From assembly GCA_030667965.1 (NCBI GenBank), contig DAOUUW010000011.1, forward strand, positions 1 to 34,644: a stretch of DNA of 34,644 nt, given 5' to 3'. Below, in pieces: positions 7,271 to 27,164 of the stretch (position 1 is its first letter; the number at the start of each line of letters is the position of its first letter). The notes below the pieces were generated by a model that worked only from the letters and a program-made list of their open reading frames with translations, was not told where the DNA came from and made no database searches. The translations under genes were made by a program, and so were the position numbers. Source of the DNA: Deltaproteobacteria bacterium (GTDB lineage Bacteria; Desulfobacterota; Desulfobulbia; Desulfobulbales; SURF-16).

Positions 7271-8331
7271 GTTTTGCCTCTCCATGGGCCTTTATCGCCC
7301 TGCTGCTCATCCCCATCCACCTTTTTTTCCAGTTTCGCAGCCGCAGGAAAACTTCTCCGGCAATCAAATTTTCGTCCATTGACCTGCTGCTTCCCGCAGG
7401 CGCCTCATGGCGCCGGCGTTTTTTACACCTGCCGCTCTTTCTACGCGCCCTTGCTTTTCTTCTCCTTATCGTGGCCCTTGCCCGTCCCCAACTGGGTATT
7501 GAAAAAATCTATGACACCAGCCACGGCATTGCCATCGAGATGGTCATTGACCGTTCAAGCAGCATGGGGGAGGAAATGATATTGAACCACAAAAAGACAA
7601 ACCGGCTGGAGGTGGTGAAATACGTTTTTGAGGAATTTGTCACCGGCAACAATGAACAGCTTGCGGGCCGCCCAAATGACATTATTGGCCTTGTCACCTT
7701 TGCCCGCTTTCCGGAAACGCTTTGCCCCCTGACCCTGTCCCACGAAACATTAAGCGGATTTGTCCAGCAAATCCGGCTTGTGAACAGGCGCGAGGAAGAC
7801 GGCACCGGTATCGGCGACGGTATCGCCCTGGCTGCCGCCCGCCTGCAAAAAGCAGACGAAAATATTGCCGTGGAGAACAAGAAAAATTCTGCAAAAGATT
7901 ATGAGATAAAAAGTAAAATTATTATCCTCCTCACCGATGGCGCTCATAATGCCGGTGGCCTCACCCCTATTGAGGCGGCCGAACTTGCCAGGCAATGGGG
8001 GATAAAAATCTACACCATCGGCATTGGTCAGGACAATAACAGTGCCGGCATCGGCGGGTTTTTCGCCATACTGCAGCGCCCGGGAGGCAATGTTGACCAA
8101 AAGACCCTGCAGGAAATTGCCCAAAAAACAGGGGGGATTTTCCGCATGGCCTCCGACGTCGAGGGGTTACGAGCTATTTACGAAGAAATTGACCGGATGG
8201 AAAAAAGTAAAATTGAAAGCGTCCGCCATGTGGATTATGCAGAATATTTTTCTTATTTTGTCCTGGCAGCCCTGGCCCTTCTTGTTCTTGAAACGCTGCT
8301 GCGCACAACCCTGCTGCGTAAAATTCCATGA
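7267..8331 (+). CDS. batA: BatA, von Willebrand factor A membrane protein
   Basis: A 354-residue inner-membrane protein with the Bat-A layout: two N-terminal membrane segments (about 5-22 and 58-76) bracketing a short arginine-rich loop, a VWA domain from about residue 88, and a C-terminal membrane helix (about 326-346). The metal-ion-dependent adhesion site is intact (Asp95-x-Ser-x-Ser in VIDRSSSMGEE), and LLTDGAHNAGG supplies the distal aspartate. Bat proteins were named for Bacteroides aerotolerance and are linked to survival of oxidative stress, but their molecular action is unsettled. The start and stop codons overlap both neighbours by four bases. Confidence 0.92.
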   Translation: MSFASPWAFIALLLIPIHLFFQFRSRRKTSPAIKFSSIDLLLPAGASWRRRFLHLPLFLRALAFLLLIVALARPQLGIEKIYDTSHGIAIEMVIDRSSSMGEEMILNHKKTNRLEVVKYVFEEFVTGNNEQLAGRPNDIIGLVTFARFPETLCPLTLSHETLSGFVQQIRLVNRREEDGTGIGDGIALAAARLQKADENIAVENKKNSAKDYEIKSKIIILLTDGAHNAGGLTPIEAAELARQWGIKIYTIGIGQDNNSAGIGGFFAILQRPGGNVDQKTLQEIAQKTGGIFRMASDVEGLRAIYEEIDRMEKSKIESVRHVDYAEYFSYFVLAALALLVLETLLRTTLLRKIP

Positions 8332-10268
8332 GCGACATGCACTTCACACATATAGAGATGTTTCTCTATCTCTGGCTGCTGCCGCTGCTGGCACTTCTCT
8401 TCATGTATGCAGCCGGACGCCGCAGGAAGGAGTTAGCCGCCTTTATAGAACCCGGTCTTCTGAACAAATTCCCTCTTGCCACTGGTTCTGCCGGACGGAC
8501 ACGGCGTTTCATTCTCCTCTGTACGGCAATTACCCTGCTGGTCATCAGTCTTGCACGACCGGCCTGGAATCTCAGCGAAACCACGATTAAACAATCGGGC
8601 CGTGATGTGGTGTTCATGGTTGACGTGTCAAACAGCATGCTGGCCACCGACCTCAAACCGAACAGGCTGGAGCGGGCCAAGCTGGCAATGCGGGACTGCA
8701 TTGAAAAACTTGCGGGAGACAGGGTGGCTCTGGTGGCTTTTTCCGGCACGGCTTCCGTGAAATGCCCCCTCACCAGAGATTACGGATTTTTCCTGATGAT
8801 GCTTGACTCAATCAACACAACAAGCACCGGCCAGGGCGGCACCCTTATCGGCGACGGCCTGCGGACCACCATGGAGCAGGTTTTTGATGACCAGGAAAAA
8901 CAATTTAAGGACATAATCCTCATCACTGACGGCGAAGACCATGAAAGTTTTCCTGTCCAGGCCGCCCAGGCTGCGGGTGATGCAGGAATACGGCTGTTAA
9001 TTATCGGCCTTGGCGATGAAAAAAAGGGTCGTCGCATTCCGTTAACCACGCAAGACGGCAAAACCACATTTTTAAAATATAACGGCCGCGAGGTATGGAC
9101 AAAACTTGACGGGCAAACCCTGCGCGAAATGGCCCTGGCCACTCCGGGCGGACGCTATCTGCCGGTTGCCACCGGCACCATTGATCTCGGAGAAGTGTAT
9201 CAGGATCTTATTTCCTCTGCCGAACGTAAGGAACTTGAATCGAAAACCATCAAAAGATATGAAGAAAAATTTCAGATTTTTCTTGGTGCTGCCATTCTTC
9301 TGCTGGCGGCAGAAGGGCTTGTCGGTAAAACATTTTTACTCCTGTTTTTTGTCCTTCTCCCCCTGATCTCACCTGAACAGGGCATGGCGGCATCCCCACG
9401 CAGCCTGGTTGCCAAAGGCAATGAGGCGTATGAAAATAAAAAATTCAGTGAAGCGGAAAAGCTCTACAACGAGGCCCTTGATAAGGCGCCGAAAAAATAT
9501 GAAGCTCTTTTCAACAAAGGCAACAGCCTCTTTCGCCTGGACAAATTCGACCAGGCCGAGCAAACATACCGGCAGGCCCTCTTCAACGCAGAAAGCACAA
9601 AATCAGAGAGTCAATGCTGGTTTAACATGGGCAACAGCCGTTTCCGTCTTGCTGAACAGAAAGACGGCTTGCAGGCAAAGCTGACAGAACTTCAGGAAAG
9701 CGCCAATTTTTTTCTAAAGGCCTTCCAGCTTGGAGCAAATCAGACACAGGCGGGCCATAACCTGGAAATTACGCGAAAAAAGATAAAAGAAATCGAAGAG
9801 AAAATACAGGAACAGAAAAAGAAGGAAAAAAAGGAAAAGAAGCAACAAGAGCAACAAGAGCAACAAGAGCAACAAGAGCAACAAGAGCAACAAGAGCAAC
9901 AAGAGCAACAAGAGCAACAAGAGCAACAAGAGCAACAAGAGCAACAAGAGCAGAATACTTCACAGGATAATACAAAGCAACAGGACAACAGCGCCGATCC
10001 GGGAAAAAATCAGGAGCAGCAAAAAGAACAGGAGCAGCAAAAACAAGACGCTGCAGATCAACAAACCGATCAAGAATCAGACAATTTGTCGGAGCAGAAC
10101 GGAACCCCTCCATCATCGCAAAATGAAATACAGGCAAATGAAACAGACAAACAACAGGACTTGACAAAGAAAACCGTGGAAGCGATCCTGGAAGCTGAAA
10201 AAAAACTCCAGCAAATGCGAAATGAACAAATGAGAGGCCGCAGTGCTCCAGTTGACAAAAACTGGTAA
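8328..10268 (+). CDS. batB: BatB-BatC fusion: VWA domain plus TPR and (QQE)n tail, 646 aa
   Basis: The first 330 residues are BatB: membrane segments at about 10-27 and 62-80, a VWA domain with intact MIDAS (Asp99-x-Ser-x-Ser in MVDVSNSMLATD), and a C-terminal membrane segment (about 319-350). The frame then continues without a stop into a BatC-like region with two to three TPR repeats (about 355-480), ending in a charged Gln/Glu/Lys-rich tail. BatB and BatC are separate genes in Bacteroides, so this is a natural fusion. The TPRs would follow the last membrane segment directly. Residues 506-541 are twelve QQE triplets encoded by a perfect 9-bp tandem repeat. It overlaps batA by four bases. 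Confidence 0.9.
   Translation: MSDMHFTHIEMFLYLWLLPLLALLFMYAAGRRRKELAAFIEPGLLNKFPLATGSAGRTRRFILLCTAITLLVISLARPAWNLSETTIKQSGRDVVFMVDVSNSMLATDLKPNRLERAKLAMRDCIEKLAGDRVALVAFSGTASVKCPLTRDYGFFLMMLDSINTTSTGQGGTLIGDGLRTTMEQVFDDQEKQFKDIILITDGEDHESFPVQAAQAAGDAGIRLLIIGLGDEKKGRRIPLTTQDGKTTFLKYNGREVWTKLDGQTLREMALATPGGRYLPVATGTIDLGEVYQDLISSAERKELESKTIKRYEEKFQIFLGAAILLLAAEGLVGKTFLLLFFVLLPLISPEQGMAASPRSLVAKGNEAYENKKFSEAEKLYNEALDKAPKKYEALFNKGNSLFRLDKFDQAEQTYRQALFNAESTKSESQCWFNMGNSRFRLAEQKDGLQAKLTELQESANFFLKAFQLGANQTQAGHNLEITRKKIKEIEEKIQEQKKKEKKEKKQQEQQEQQEQQEQQEQQEQQEQQEQQEQQEQQEQQEQNTSQDNTKQQDNSADPGKNQEQQKEQEQQKQDAADQQTDQESDNLSEQNGTPPSSQNEIQANETDKQQDLTKKTVEAILEAEKKLQQMRNEQMRGRSAPVDKNW
9843..9950 (+). repeat. 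12 perfect copies of a 9-bp tandem repeat (CAACAAGAG)
   Basis: The unit CAACAAGAG occurs 12 times without a single mismatch over 108 bases, encoding (Gln-Gln-Glu)12 in the tail of the BatB-BatC fusion. Because the unit is three codons, gain or loss of copies by replication slippage keeps the frame. Perfect identity suggests recent expansion. Confidence 0.97.
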
Positions 10269-12314: not shown

Positions 12315-12689
12315 ATGACAGGAAAAAAGATTCTGGTCATCGAGGACAACGAGCTCAACCTCAAACTTGTTCGTACTCTGCTGGAGATGGCCGACTATAC
12401 CGTACTGGCGGCCGGCAATGCCGAACAGGGTATTGCTCTGGCCCGTGATGCCTCTCCCGATCTCATCCTCATGGACATCCAGTTGCCGGGGCTTGACGGA
12501 TTAAGTGCCACCAGGAACATTCAGGCCGATCCTCAGCTCAGCCATATCCCCATTATTGCCGTCACATCATTTGCCATGGAAGGGGATCAGCAGAAGGCCT
12601 TTGATGCGGGATGCACTGGATATATTGCCAAGCCCATAGACACCCGTAATTTCATAAACCAAGTCAACACCTACCTGGAGAGCAAATAA
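12315..12689 (+). CDS. single-domain response regulator (CheY/DivK-like)
   Basis: A 124-residue stand-alone receiver domain. The acidic pocket is Glu10-Asp11, the phosphoacceptor is Asp54 in LILMDIQLPG, and the switch residues are Thr84 (VTSFAM) and Lys106 (YIAKP). There is no output domain, so it signals by protein contact or relays phosphate. The sequence style (ILVIEDNELNLKLV, PLDG-like loop) is closest to DivK-type receivers. Its stop codon is one base before the start of the first rhodanese gene, so the two are almost certainly co-transcribed. The membrane kinase at 14499 is the nearest candidate partner. No strong ribosome-binding site is visible. Confidence 0.92.
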   Translation: MTGKKILVIEDNELNLKLVRTLLEMADYTVLAAGNAEQGIALARDASPDLILMDIQLPGLDGLSATRNIQADPQLSHIPIIAVTSFAMEGDQQKAFDAGCTGYIAKPIDTRNFINQVNTYLESK

Positions 12690-12690
12690 A

Positions 12691-13506
12691 ATGCCTTTTC
12701 AGGAGGGTAAACAATTTCAGCGAATTTCCCGCCCAATGCGTCTCCTTGTTGCATTTCTCGCCATTATTCATCTGCTGAGCATATCCCCTGCGTTTGCCCG
12801 GGAATTGCAAATCATCACCGCACCTGAAGTAAAAAACATGATGGAAAACGACCCGAGGGTAGTGGTCATTAACGCCTTAAGCAGCATCGAATACAACTCA
12901 CTGCATATTCCCGGTTCTATCAATATTCCCGTGGTCGACTTTCGCACTTCCAAGCTGCTTCCCGAAGATAAATCAACCCCCTTGATCACTTACTGCATGG
13001 GGCATAACTGACCATACGGCCCCAGGACTGCAAGGATTGCAGTGGAGCTTGGCTATACCAATGTGTATTGTTTTAAGGGCGGCATCCCGGAATGGCGCAC
13101 TTTCAATTATCCCTTGATGGAGGATGAAGATTATCCGAGCATTAAAATAAACAAAATCAGCCCCAAAGCCCTCTACGGGCTCCTGCAAAAAGACAGCTCT
13201 ATTTTTATCCTCGATGTCTGTCCCATTGACTGCGAAAGAGACCATCTTTACATCGAAAATTCCGTTATATGCCCCATGGTCTATCTTGAAGACTGGTACC
13301 ATAATATCCCGAAAGACAGAGACATCGTCATTATTGACTGGGCCAACAAAAAATCACTCGTTGCGGGAAAATTCCTCAAGAAAAAGGGCTATAAGGTCAT
13401 CGGCAGCCTCAAAGGAGGACTCCTTCGATGGCATGCGGAAAACATGCCGGTTGTCGAGGTGAAAGACCCTCTCAAACATATCACTAATATTCCGTGCACA
13501 CATTGA
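12691..13506 (+). CDS. secreted selenocysteine-containing double-rhodanese protein 1 (TGA at 13009-13011 read as Sec)
   Basis: Two open segments (12691-13008 and 13012-13506) lie in one frame, separated only by TGA. Read through, they give 271 residues: a signal peptide (core LLVAFLAIIHLLSISPAFA, possibly starting at Met17) and two rhodanese domains. In domain 1 the catalytic loop is Cys102-Met-Gly-His-Asn-Sec107, directly followed by PYGPRTARIAVELGY and GGIPEW, the conserved second half of the fold. As recalled, relatives with a Cys-x4-Cys loop have cysteine at this place. In domain 2 the catalytic Cys is replaced by Asp (IIDWANKKS), so it is probably structural. The likely role is periplasmic sulfur or selenium transfer, or redox chemistry. 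The alternative, a nonsense mutation, is disfavoured by the identical arrangement in the next gene. Confidence 0.85.
13009..13043 (+). promoter_or_regulatory. UGA-Sec codon with SECIS-like hairpin, gene 1
   Basis: After TGA (13009-13011), ACTGCA (13027-13032) and TGCAGT (13038-13043) form a perfect 6-bp stem closed by the 5-nt loop AGGAT. The loop starts 21 nt after the TGA, within the usual 16-37 nt window for bacterial SECIS elements, and carries G in its first two bases. The same element follows the TGA of the downstream paralogue. Confidence 0.72.
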
Positions 13507-13507
13507 C

Positions 13508-14350
13508 ATGAAAAAATTATCCTGGTTATACTGTTTTTCAGCAATCCTGCTGCTGGTCACGCTCCTCGCATTTCCAGGAAGCTCTAACGCTTCTGAACCA
13601 TCTCTGGAAGGGTATACGGATATTACGGCGCCGGAGCTGAAACAGATGATTGACGACGGCGACAAAATTTTGCTCATCAATGTTCTCAGTGAAATTGAAT
13701 TTAACATCCAGCATATCACCGGCTCCATTAATATTCCGGTCATCGATATGCTCGGCACAGAGCAACTTCCCGAGGACAAAAATATCCCCCTTGTCTTTCA
13801 TTGCCTGAGCAACAGGTGAAACTATGGTAAAAAAGCCGCAAGGATTGCGGTGGCACGAGGCTACAAAAAAGTTTACAATTTTATTGGCGGTGTTCCGAAA
13901 TGGCGTTTCTTTAATTTCCCCATGACCGAGGATAACAAATGGCGGGACATAAAAGTGGCAAAAATCCCTCCAGAGAAGTTTCAACAGATCCTTTCCGAAG
14001 AACAAGACATCTTCCTTCTCGATGTACGAAGCCTGGATGCAGAATCGTTGAAAGATGAAAAATTCGTCTTCAAATTCAACAACTCCTCCATGTCAGGCAG
14101 CTATATAAAAGGGGCCTTGCACTGTCCCCTTCTCGCCCTGGAGGAAAACTATCATTTTATTCCCAAAGATCGCAAGGTTATAATAACCGACTGGATCATG
14201 AAACAATCTATTATTGCCGCCAAATTTCTTTCTTCCAAAGGCTATGAAGTCGTGGGAGTTTTAAAGGGAGGATCAGCCCGCTGGCAGACAGAACAAATGC
14301 CGCTGATACAGAGCGAGAACAAACTGCATAAACAACTTTTATGTGATTAA
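13508..14350 (+). CDS. secreted selenocysteine-containing double-rhodanese protein 2 (TGA at 13817-13819 read as Sec)
   Basis: A paralogue of the preceding gene, starting one base after its stop. Segments 13508-13816 and 13820-14350 share one frame around TGA and give 280 residues. There is a signal peptide (WLYCFSAILLLVTLLAF). Rhodanese domain 1 has the loop Cys99-Leu-Ser-Asn-Arg-Sec104, followed by NYGKKAARIAVARGY and GGVPKW. In degenerate domain 2, Asp stands in for the catalytic Cys (IITDWIMKQS). The two proteins have diverged clearly outside the conserved blocks, so this is not a recent duplication, yet the TGA has been kept at the homologous codon. The start lacks a good ribosome-binding site, so coupling to gene 1 is likely. 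Function is inferred as for gene 1. Confidence 0.85.
13817..13851 (+). promoter_or_regulatory. UGA-Sec codon with SECIS-like hairpin, gene 2
   Basis: After TGA (13817-13819), GCCGCA (13835-13840) and TGCGGT (13846-13851) pair, with one G-U pair at the base, and enclose the same AGGAT loop. The spacing from the TGA is again 21 nt. Compared with gene 1, a U-A pair has become C-G by changes in both arms (13029/13041 versus 13837/13849), both at third codon positions. Confidence 0.72.
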
Positions 14351-14498: not shown

Positions 14499-16409
14499 AT
14501 GAACCCCTCCCTGCCTCATGCCGGCGAAAAACACGATAAAGGACCGCACAGAACAATTATCCGCAGGATCGTCCTCCTTTTCATCCTGCTCATTGCCATG
14601 ATCATCGGCAATGCCATTTTCTCTTCCATTCAGGAAAACAAAAAAGTCAATGAACAGTTAAACAACAAACTGCATTCCGGGCAGGTTATCGCCAAGTCCA
14701 TCTTAAACACCGAACTGGACAAGCTCAGCATGATTTCCGGCATTGTTAAAGAACAAAACAAGAAATTTGTAGATTTTCTTGATTACGACAAGCTCAAACC
14801 AATCACCGTCATGCTGCAGACCATTGCCACCAAGCATAATATTGACATGGTCTTTCTCTTTGACGGAGACAACAACCTGCTGACCTGCAACCGCCTGGGC
14901 ACTGATTTCGCCCATTCCGACCTCTATAAAATATTTACAAAAAACCACGAAACCCAATTAGGCATTCAAGAAATACCTGTCAGCATCCTTGAACTGCAGA
15001 AGTTGTCAGACAAAGTTGTACCATATCAGAAAAAAATCCTTGCATTCCAATCAATTATCCATCTTTTGCACGACTCCGGGGACATATACGGCCACATTGT
15101 CATGATCAAACTGATTAACGGCAACCAGCAACTTGCCGGCCAGATGTCCTCCATCAGCGGAACGGAAATTATATTTTTTAACCATGATATGCAGACGGCG
15201 TTGACCAGTTTTCCAAACACCCAGCTAACCTTTCCCTTGAACGACACCCTGATCCACAACTCCACTTCGTATGCAACCAGTACGATAGAGCTCAAAAACT
15301 ATGAAGAAAAAATTATCGGCCACTTAACCGTGGCCCTGGACCAAGAAAATTTCATCCTGCAGAGACGACGATTGATCACGACCAACCTCATTCCCTTCTT
15401 CGGCTCCGTGATAATTTCCATGGCCCTCTTTTTCCTGCTGCGTTTCCGCGTGTTCAACAAAATCAATCAGCTCATCATTGCCCTTCATCAGGTGACGGAA
15501 AAAAAAGGGAATTTAAGCATCAGGCTCCCCGAGCCAACTGACAGGGAAAAGGGGATTGACGAGGTCGAAAACATGGCCATCGACTTTAACGCCATGATGA
15601 ACACCCTGGAGGAGACATACAACCAGCTTATCAGGGCCAGGCAGGAAGCGGAGGTGGCAAATATCTCCAAGAGTGAATTTCTGGCCAATATGAGTCATGA
15701 ATTACGCACTCCCCTCAATGCGATCATCGGCTTTACGGAGATCGTCCTTGACAGACATTTTGGCAAACTCAATGCAACCCAGGAAGACTACCTCGGCGAC
15801 GTGCTTCAATCAAGCCGCCATCTTCTCTCGGTTATCAATGACATTCTCGACCTTTCCAAAGTGGAAGCAGGAAAACTCGAGTTGAACCTCTCCGAGTTTC
15901 ACCTTGGCGAGCTTCTTTCCAACAGCTTTATCATGATTAAGGAGAAAGCACAGCAAAACAACATCACACTCAATCTGGACGCAAAAGACAACCTGCCGGA
16001 AACTATTTTTGCAGATGAAAGGAAAATAAAACAGATACTCTTCAACCTCCTGGCAAATGCGGTTAAATTCACCAAACCAGGCGGTCACATTACATTGAAG
16101 GCACGCAACAGCGATATTTCGGACTGGCCCCTGAACACTTCCATAGACGACAGAGACTCCATTCTTCCGGAACGGAAACTCATCAAAATTTCCGTTATTG
16201 ACTCGGGGATAGGGATTCACAAAGAAGACCTGGAAAGAATATTCCTTCCCTTTGAACAGGCAGACGGATCAACAAGCAAATTATATCAGGGAACAGGCCT
16301 TGGACTGTCGCTGACCAAACGACTGGTAGAACTGCATAACGGACGAATCCGGGCGGAAAGCCGGGGAGGCGGCAAAGGCAGTACCTTCTCCTTTATCCTG
16401 CCGGTTTAA
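14499..16409 (+). CDS. membrane sensor histidine kinase with periplasmic sensor and HAMP domain
   Basis: A 636-residue kinase. A first membrane helix (about 24-43) leads to a periplasmic sensor region of about 250 residues that I cannot assign firmly, perhaps Cache-like. A second helix (about 298-316) is followed by HAMP to about 375 and a short coiled coil. HisKA has [16 protein letters not shown] with phosphoacceptor His400, and the HATPase domain has the N box ([11 protein letters not shown]), DSGIGI and GTGLGLSL. There is no receiver or DNA-binding domain, so phosphate must pass to a separate protein. The lone receiver at 12315 is the closest candidate. It lies 148 bases downstream of the second rhodanese gene, in the same orientation. 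Confidence 0.92.
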
Positions 16410-16444: not shown

Positions 16445-18391
16445 TTAATACTTATCCCCCTTCCACATATCCGGAGAAAAAGAAACCACCCTGTTGCGAC
16501 CAGTGTCCTTGGCCCGGTACAGGGCAACATCGGCAAACTTAATCGCCTCCCAGAAACCATCAGTATCGCCGGGGAATTCACTGAGTCCGATACTCATGGT
16601 TTTTTGCAGTGTACCATCAGGGACATTGATCACTGTTTGTGCCATGGCTTTACGAATCTTTTCTGCCAGATCGATAATATCCTGCCGGCTCTTTACATCA
16701 ATGAGCAGGACAACAAACTCCTCGCCGCCGTAACGGATGACCATATCCGAGGCCCTGATACAGTTCTTCAGCACTTCAGCCGTCTTGACCAGCACAACAT
16801 CACCGATTTCGTGGCCATAAGTGTCATTGACTTCCTTGAAAAAATCCATGTCGCACATGAGAATGCCAAGCTTCGTCTTCCTGCGCAGGGTGCTTGCCAC
16901 CAAAGTGTCGGTATATGATTCCAGAAAACGCCTGTTATACAGATCCGTCATGGGATCACGCAAGGTTGACTCATGCAGGACGGAGGCAAAACGCTTGGCC
17001 TCGATGACCGGTGTGGCCTCCTTGATATAACGTTTCGCCCTTTTCACCTGGTCGACAAACAGCTTTTTACTCTCTTCCGAGCTGCCTTTTTCATGGAGGA
17101 ACTGAACAACACCCACCACTTTACCGCTGGCAATCATAGGGATACAATGATGGTCAAGCCGGTCTCCATGGGGAAATTTTTTACAGATTTCGGGAAAATC
17201 AATGGATGAAATAGAATGACCGGTACGCTTGGCCCTGCAGAAATTTGACTCATCAAATATCTCAGGATTGCAGACGTCATCATAATCAGTGGCATAGGCA
17301 ATAGACATATTGTTTTTTGTGCCTGTCCGCTCATAAATAAAAAACTTGTCACAACCAAACCGTTCCCGCATGACATGGGCCAGACGCTGGTTGACCTCGG
17401 TGGTGGACTCCTCCTCTTCAATAACGGCCTTAAAAAAGTTGAGGCTGAAAATACTGTCCACAAGGGTATTAAATTGATGAGCAAGTTGCCCCACCTCATC
17501 ATTGCTCTTGACCTCAATTCTCTGGGCAAGATCACCTCCCCCTTTGGCAATAAAACTGATCTTATCAAGAACATCCCGCAGCGGATGGACAATAACAAGA
17601 ATGTAAAGCAGGGTGGCAATTGTCAGCACTGCCGCAACGACAAGACCTATCCAGAGCGAGCGGGTAATGGAGGTACTGACAATATCATCCAGTTCGCCAA
17701 ACTCTTCTTTGTTTTCCCTGTTAATCTCAACAGTCATGTCAATAACCAGATCATACACCTCGGCAAGACTGCCCAGTACATCCGACAGGAACTCGTCCTG
17801 CTCGGCATCGGGACATTCTTCGATCAAGCATTGTGTCAGTCCATGAAACGACTCCTTGAGAAAAACAATCTCCTCATCAATATCGACGATGAGATCATTC
17901 ATAACCGGATCATCTTTTTTCTCCACCGTAAAAACATCCAGGGTCTTACTGGAAACCCTGGCCATATCAAGCACGGAACCTCCGTCTCTCAGAGCAGCCA
18001 CCATTGTGCCCATATCCTCAAGCCGCCTGACATTCGCCTTTACATTTTGATCATCTCCTTTTATTTTGTCGGAATCAAGAATATGTATCAGGGAAATTTT
18101 AAAGCCGTTGATGCTGCGCAAAATATATTGACTGATTTTGTAGCGGGGAATAGATATATCGTCGATAATCCTGTTGTGTTCTTCAATGTGTTGTAGAGAA
18201 CGCGTGTTGAGCACAGTAACGAGAGAAAACCCCAGCAGGGAAACCACCAGCATGCCGATCAGCTTGCCGGTAATACTGGTATCAAGGCATTTCTGTATCA
18301 GGCAGCCTGGAAAACTTTCAGAGGTGCACTTGACCAGTCCAAAAATGGAAAAACTACCTTTTTGTTGACAAATTTTTTCTGGTGTAGACAT
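16445..18391 (-). CDS. diguanylate cyclase with membrane sensor, HAMP and GAF-like region
   Basis: A 648-residue membrane enzyme predicted to make cyclic di-GMP. Two membrane helices (about 42-62 and 236-258) bracket a helical periplasmic sensor, followed by HAMP (to about 312). A GAF-like segment (about 320-455) and a C-terminal GGDEF domain follow. The active-site motif is GGEEF at residues 555-559. The inhibitory I-site RxxD is intact (Arg546 to Asp549), so product inhibition is expected. AGGA seven bases upstream supports the start at 18391. It converges with the histidine kinase (35-base gap) and is divergent from batE. Confidence 0.92.
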   Translation of the reverse strand: MSTPEKICQQKGSFSIFGLVKCTSESFPGCLIQKCLDTSITGKLIGMLVVSLLGFSLVTVLNTRSLQHIEEHNRIIDDISIPRYKISQYILRSINGFKISLIHILDSDKIKGDDQNVKANVRRLEDMGTMVAALRDGGSVLDMARVSSKTLDVFTVEKKDDPVMNDLIVDIDEEIVFLKESFHGLTQCLIEECPDAEQDEFLSDVLGSLAEVYDLVIDMTVEINRENKEEFGELDDIVSTSITRSLWIGLVVAAVLTIATLLYILVIVHPLRDVLDKISFIAKGGGDLAQRIEVKSNDEVGQLAHQFNTLVDSIFSLNFFKAVIEEEESTTEVNQRLAHVMRERFGCDKFFIYERTGTKNNMSIAYATDYDDVCNPEIFDESNFCRAKRTGHSISSIDFPEICKKFPHGDRLDHHCIPMIASGKVVGVVQFLHEKGSSEESKKLFVDQVKRAKRYIKEATPVIEAKRFASVLHESTLRDPMTDLYNRRFLESYTDTLVASTLRRKTKLGILMCDMDFFKEVNDTYGHEIGDVVLVKTAEVLKNCIRASDMVIRYGGEEFVVLLIDVKSRQDIIDLAEKIRKAMAQTVINVPDGTLQKTMSIGLSEFPGDTDGFWEAIKFADVALYRAKDTGRNRVVSFSPDMWKGDKY

Positions 18392-26617: not shown

Positions 26618-27164
<547 letters not shown>

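Follow-up and report, generated by a model that had tools for sequence, protein, structure and literature searches.

The two adjacent rhodanese genes in the window analyzed here (the whole stretch of 34,644 nucleotides, from contig DAOUUW010000011.1 of a Deltaproteobacteria bacterium) pose the question of how an in-frame TGA codon in each of them is read, and of what the resulting proteins would do. The genes, coding for RhoA (gene A, coordinates 12691 to 13506) and its tandem paralogue RhoB (gene B, 13508 to 14350), lie on the forward strand, as do the other genes and the RNA hairpins of the conserved cluster described below. Each reading frame contains a single TGA, at residue 107 of RhoA (13009 to 13011) ahead of the gene's own stop, and at residue 104 of RhoB (13817 to 13819), where the frame then runs to a terminal TAA. 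RhoA and RhoB are approximately 44% identical, and the TGA codons fall in the homologous column, within the motifs YCMGHN-U-PYG in RhoA (Cys102-x4-Sec107) and HCLSNR-U-NYG in RhoB, such that the C-x4-TGA arrangement in domain 1 that was reported in the first-pass annotation is seen in both genes.

Both proteins belong to the rhodanese family, with Pfam Rhodanese (PF00581) scores of 78.1 and 86.5 bits against a gathering threshold of 22.2, and each has two matching stretches; a structure model of RhoB (pLDDT 84) likewise matches tandem rhodaneses, the best being 6mxv. The earlier description as double rhodaneses is thus accurate for the fold but not for the chemistry, because Asp-Trp replaces the catalytic Cys in domain 2 and the catalytic Cys is kept in domain 1 alone. 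The precursors, with Sec included, are 271 aa (RhoA) and 280 aa (RhoB), slightly longer than the 27-30 kDa proposed previously would imply. Domain 1 has its Cys in 28/28 sequences of the clade, and Cys102 and Sec107 are the only Cys/Sec positions that are invariant among these 28 members; a domain-2 Cys in a CP motif is present in 22/28, and a C-terminal Cys in all nine RhoB proteins. The RhoA and RhoB clades are each monophyletic (tree support 1.000 and 0.996, respectively), which is consistent with one duplication and retention of Sec in both copies. Both proteins are predicted to be exported, as judged by eye from N-termini that resemble export signals.

One possibility is that the TGA codons are real stops, and that the genes are split, are pseudogenes, or contain sequencing errors. 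Gene callers would indeed split both genes, and the Sec reading given here is one made from sequence. However, the genome encodes SelA, SelB, SelD, and a tRNA-Sec with a TCA anticodon, all scoring above curated cut-offs, so that the Sec machinery on which the first-pass annotation had made its reading depend is present; the selD gene of this genome also has an in-frame TGA. Furthermore, the Sec column in 79 distinct homologues holds TGA in 50, TGC or TGT in 26, and codons for other residues in three, and never TAA or TAG; in the close clade (>280 bits), TGA is present in 30/30 matches. The TAA and TAG codons that do appear in the homologue search tables were considered as counterevidence and set aside, being terminal stops or, in a few cases, lying before the start codon. 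The argument that two nonsense mutations would not arise by chance at the same codon of diverged paralogues is well borne out by these counts.

The sequence downstream of the TGA codons also behaves as coding sequence. Comparison of orthologues gives dN values much lower than dS on both sides of the TGA (post-TGA dN of 0.048 and dS of 0.33 for gene A of genomes G622 and G621, and 0.027 and 0.24 for loci L027 and L028), and these low ratios indicate that what follows the TGA is translated and functional. Further evidence comes from bSECIS-like hairpins in the two genes, at 13027 to 13043 in RhoA (ACTGCAA-GGA-TTGCAGT) and 13835 to 13851 in RhoB (GCCGCAA-GGA-TTGCGGT), the latter having the same stem in a pattern scan. 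In both genes the stem starts 15 nt and the GGA loop 22 nt past the UGA, and the two hairpins differ by a compensatory change from a T-A to a C-G pair. They conform to the published bSECIS model, which specifies a loop of 3-9 nt with a G in its first two bases, 16-37 nt after the UGA (PMC13188914).

The hairpin is paired and covaries in relatives. Across 29 of them, 98.0% of the hairpin cells are paired, with one pair (21-33) being C-G in 17, U-A in 10, and U-G in two, and the covariation score is reached by none of 500 shuffles and drops when the partner is slid. Hairpin scores are higher after TGA (49 sequences) than after Cys codons (26 homologues; Mann-Whitney p of 1.8e-6, an optimistic value given that the sequences are related). 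The loop Arg is encoded by AGG in 25/25 sequences. By comparison, all six codons occur for an Arg located three codons upstream, and AGG makes up only 14% of the Arg codons in the window genes (47 of 325). With the column codons, the covariation, and the selection all pointing against real stops or pseudogenes, we reject that explanation on sequence grounds as vanishingly improbable; RhoA and RhoB are almost certainly genuine selenoproteins in which UGA is read as Sec.

Rhodaneses with Sec are not new in themselves. The first-pass annotation knew of no characterized protein of this kind, and suspected that selenoproteome surveys might list related ones; the suspicion was right, and the novelty is reduced to that extent (PMC13188914, PMC1088965, PMC2398784; see also PMC5029168 and PMC9312934). 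Rhodanese-like selenoproteins have been listed as forms 1-5, of which forms 1, 2, and 4 are PF00581 proteins with UxxS or UxxG, given by accession and motif without a partner or role (PMC13188914, Table 1). The window proteins share with these forms the rhodanese domain with one Sec in a UxxG/UxxS context (UPYG and UNYG here, and UPYS in relatives), and, as compared by motif, the UxxG/UxxS forms may include the window family (the reference sequences are MBM9537886.1 for form 2 and WP_010941598.1 for form 1). There is no mention of a histidine kinase, two-component system, or sensor in PMC13188914, and we found no description of a link between a Sec rhodanese and a sensor protein in the open-licence literature searched.

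The best NCBIfam matches of the window proteins are TsoB (NF045694) and rhodanese_LYCAU (NF041203), and both fall under their cut-offs (57.0 and 53.8 bits against 805 for TsoB; 69.7 and 53.2 bits against 115 for rhodanese_LYCAU). TsoB, which resembles a rhodanese/DsbD fusion with a UxxxxU motif, has its second Sec as far from the catalytic position as the window Sec is, but the window proteins start the motif with Cys rather than Sec (CxxxxU) and have no DsbD part; rhodanese_LYCAU differs in having CxU. We note that a relative, at L054:1447-2286, has two TGA codons (YUMGYTUVYS), with Sec in place of the catalytic Cys as well as at the second position, a U-x4-U arrangement as in TsoB; a full-length TsoB match was not found for it. 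The PQQ-associated CXXCW rhodanese (TIGR03865) is also exported, as the window proteins are predicted to be, and is weakly similar to them, but it has Cys instead of Sec and is tied to PQQ alcohol dehydrogenases; at 34.2 and 31.7 bits against a cut-off of 128, membership in this family was also rejected. A comparable rhodanese, PP_2666, is encoded near two-component genes in the ped cluster of Pseudomonas putida (PMC12997753).

The genes flanking RhoA and RhoB provide the partner that the first-pass annotation had missed, and this is the more interesting part of the locus. The first gene of the cluster (12315 to 12689) codes for a single-domain response regulator of 124 aa that consists of a receiver (REC) domain only (Pfam Response_reg, E 3.8e-28), with no output or DNA-binding domain found by Pfam, and the last (14499 to 16409) for a 636-aa membrane sensor histidine kinase with Pfam HisKA and HATPase_c domains. 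The four genes are separated by gaps of 1, 1, and 148 nt, and the order REC, RhoA, RhoB, sensor kinase is kept in loci L021-L025 and L068/L069, where the REC orthologue (70-76%) is directly upstream of the tandem rhodaneses. The N-terminal ∼330 aa of the kinase form a sensor region with a predicted dCache/LuxQ-like extracytoplasmic domain, followed by HisKA and HATPase_c. Comparison of this region with the PDB by sequence gave nothing meaningful, and the likeness comes from a structure model (pLDDT 83) for which Foldseek matches LuxQ, PctA, and other dCache ectodomains.

This arrangement is reminiscent of LuxP-LuxQ, in which LuxP has a sugar-binding-protein fold and binds AI-2. As there, the kinase has a predicted dCache/LuxQ-like ectodomain (match to 3c38 with a TM-score of 0.71 on the target) and a separate, predicted exported protein is encoded beside it in the same operon, but this partner is a rhodanese with Sec, and the likeness is one of gene order and predicted fold only. 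What varies among relatives is the output. L026 has a single Sec-rhodanese followed by a hybrid kinase, and L027 and L028 have a single Sec-rhodanese followed by a SpoIIE phosphatase, in each case with the same N-terminal sensor region; over all of the receptors the outputs comprise HisKA/HATPase, HisKA-REC-REC-Hpt, PAS-HisKA, and SpoIIE, whereas sensor and rhodanese are constant.

Two other neighbors were considered. In the window, a MoxR-DUF58-Bat operon lies upstream of the rhodaneses and includes a BatB/BatC-like protein (8328 to 10268) in which Glu-Gln-Gln is repeated many times close to the C terminus. Several relatives also have a Bat/MoxR operon nearby, but other genes intervene in L022 and L025 and it is missing from the vicinity of the rhodanese in L027 and L028, and we rejected it as the partner. 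On the opposite strand, a HAMP-GAF-GGDEF diguanylate cyclase (16445 to 18391) is convergent with the sensor kinase and adjoins it also in L022-L025, L068, and L069; it is possibly part of the same signaling circuit.

To what extent do the sensor and the Sec-rhodanese occur together? A profile of the sensor region finds matches in three of 395 genomes sampled across the phylum and, within the order, in 19 of 258. The gene immediately before the sensor codes for a Sec-rhodanese of this clade in 18 of the 19; in the remaining genome, G613, no rhodanese adjoins the sensor, which is the most divergent of all. Reciprocally, rhodanese-profile matches of at least 286 bits occur in 18 genomes, each with TGA and all within the 19 with the sensor, and none of the 258 genomes of the order has this Sec-rhodanese clade without the sensor. 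The pair is also present in three more genomes, to which L027, L028, and L029 belong (in the last, the rhodanese is split over two contig ends), giving a Sec-rhodanese beside the sensor in 21/22 sensor genomes. Many of the genomes sampled are metagenome-assembled and mutually related. Relatives borne on plasmids are distant rhodaneses only, with the best of the matches listed below 30% identity. From this pattern of gene content, a partnership of Sec-rhodanese and sensor seems likely, with the reservation that gene adjacency is functional association and not proof of physical contact.

How might such a partnership work? The reading that we favor, and consider reasonably probable, is that the receptor is built like LuxP-LuxQ, with a periplasmic Cys/Sec rhodanese as the subunit that does the chemical sensing. 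With UGA decoded as Sec by way of the hairpin starting 15 nt downstream, each protein has one Cys-x4-Sec rhodanese domain, which would be the chemically active one, and one Cys-less domain, and in the periplasm the two proteins would provide the chemical input for the neighboring sensor protein. The Cys/Sec pair may react with a sulfane-sulfur or thiol-oxidizing compound, such as polysulfide, a thiosulfate-type compound, or a selenium analogue, to give a persulfide or a Cys-S-Se-Sec bond, and the changed state of the pair could alter docking on the dCache/LuxQ-like extracytoplasmic domain. Docking would then be relayed to the output, which is the histidine kinase and stand-alone receiver here, and a hybrid kinase or SpoIIE phosphatase elsewhere. 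A reading in which a selenoprotein is the sensory subunit of a transmembrane receptor, with the rhodanese pair informing a dCache sensor of interchangeable output about sulfane sulfur or redox state outside the cytoplasm, could about equally well be right or wrong.

The main competing explanation gives the rhodaneses an enzymatic role of their own in the periplasm, in sulfur or selenium transfer or as oxidoreductases, with the kinase sensing their substrate through its dCache domain and controlling the response; the two would then answer to a shared stress without contact. It has the merit that the rhodanese fold and catalytic Cys are kept, that dCache domains usually bind small molecules directly (with PctA being among the structural matches), and that co-regulation likewise yields conserved clusters. 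However, the stand-alone REC protein lacks a DNA-binding domain and so hardly looks like the operon's regulator, the rhodanese is linked to the sensor region and not to the output, and the sensor is hardly found alone (18/19 with the rhodanese); we regard this explanation as unlikely, albeit a serious one.

A role as accessory factor was also weighed, in which the rhodaneses, acting like reductases or chaperones, preserve a functional thiol state of the sensor domain or of some other periplasmic protein and do not themselves provide the input. Cys-x4-Sec does resemble a thiol/selenol redox pair, and the sensor has one Cys (Cys130) in the main clade. In L026-L028, however, Cys130 is replaced by Thr or Ser and the rhodanese is still there, and no other sensor Cys is common to all receptors, making the accessory role highly improbable. 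The same substitutions led us to reject direct thiol transfer to a sensor Cys as a general mechanism.

If the rhodaneses do act as the sensing subunit, they would, as far as the open-licence literature searched shows, be the first case of a selenoprotein put forward as part of a receptor, and the locus suggests a selenium-based sensing module not previously described. Most bacterial selenoproteins have no known role and are usually assumed to be redox enzymes, and the near-exclusive genomic link between this Sec-rhodanese clade and a sensor domain offers a concrete, testable role in signaling; the sensor partner and the proposed signaling role are what is new. Because automatic annotation splits these genes at the UGA, the link between rhodanese and sensor has been hidden. 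It also points to a way in which sulfate-reducing and sulfur-disproportionating bacteria might detect polysulfide or zero-valent sulfur on the extracytoplasmic side.

Other Sec-containing rhodaneses were observed in addition to the window pair. The same genome has two more with TGA codons, one (L019; C119:7632-8111) with YCASGT-U-WKS in the C-x4-U spacing, and the other (L020; C147:31076-31318) with VVY-U-AIGGRS, in which Sec takes the place of the catalytic Cys. Elsewhere in the phylum, the C-x4-U motif and a SECIS-like hairpin occur in further rhodanese groups (L046, L050, L036-L038, L051, L053, L058, and L060) for which Cys versions exist, and repeated exchange between Cys and Sec seems to have taken place in the C-x4-C rhodanese loop. 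Separately, the window contains a RecQ-like helicase remnant (26642 to 27164) in which the opening and closing motifs run directly into each other, as though the central part had been lost by deletion, with a frame change downstream.
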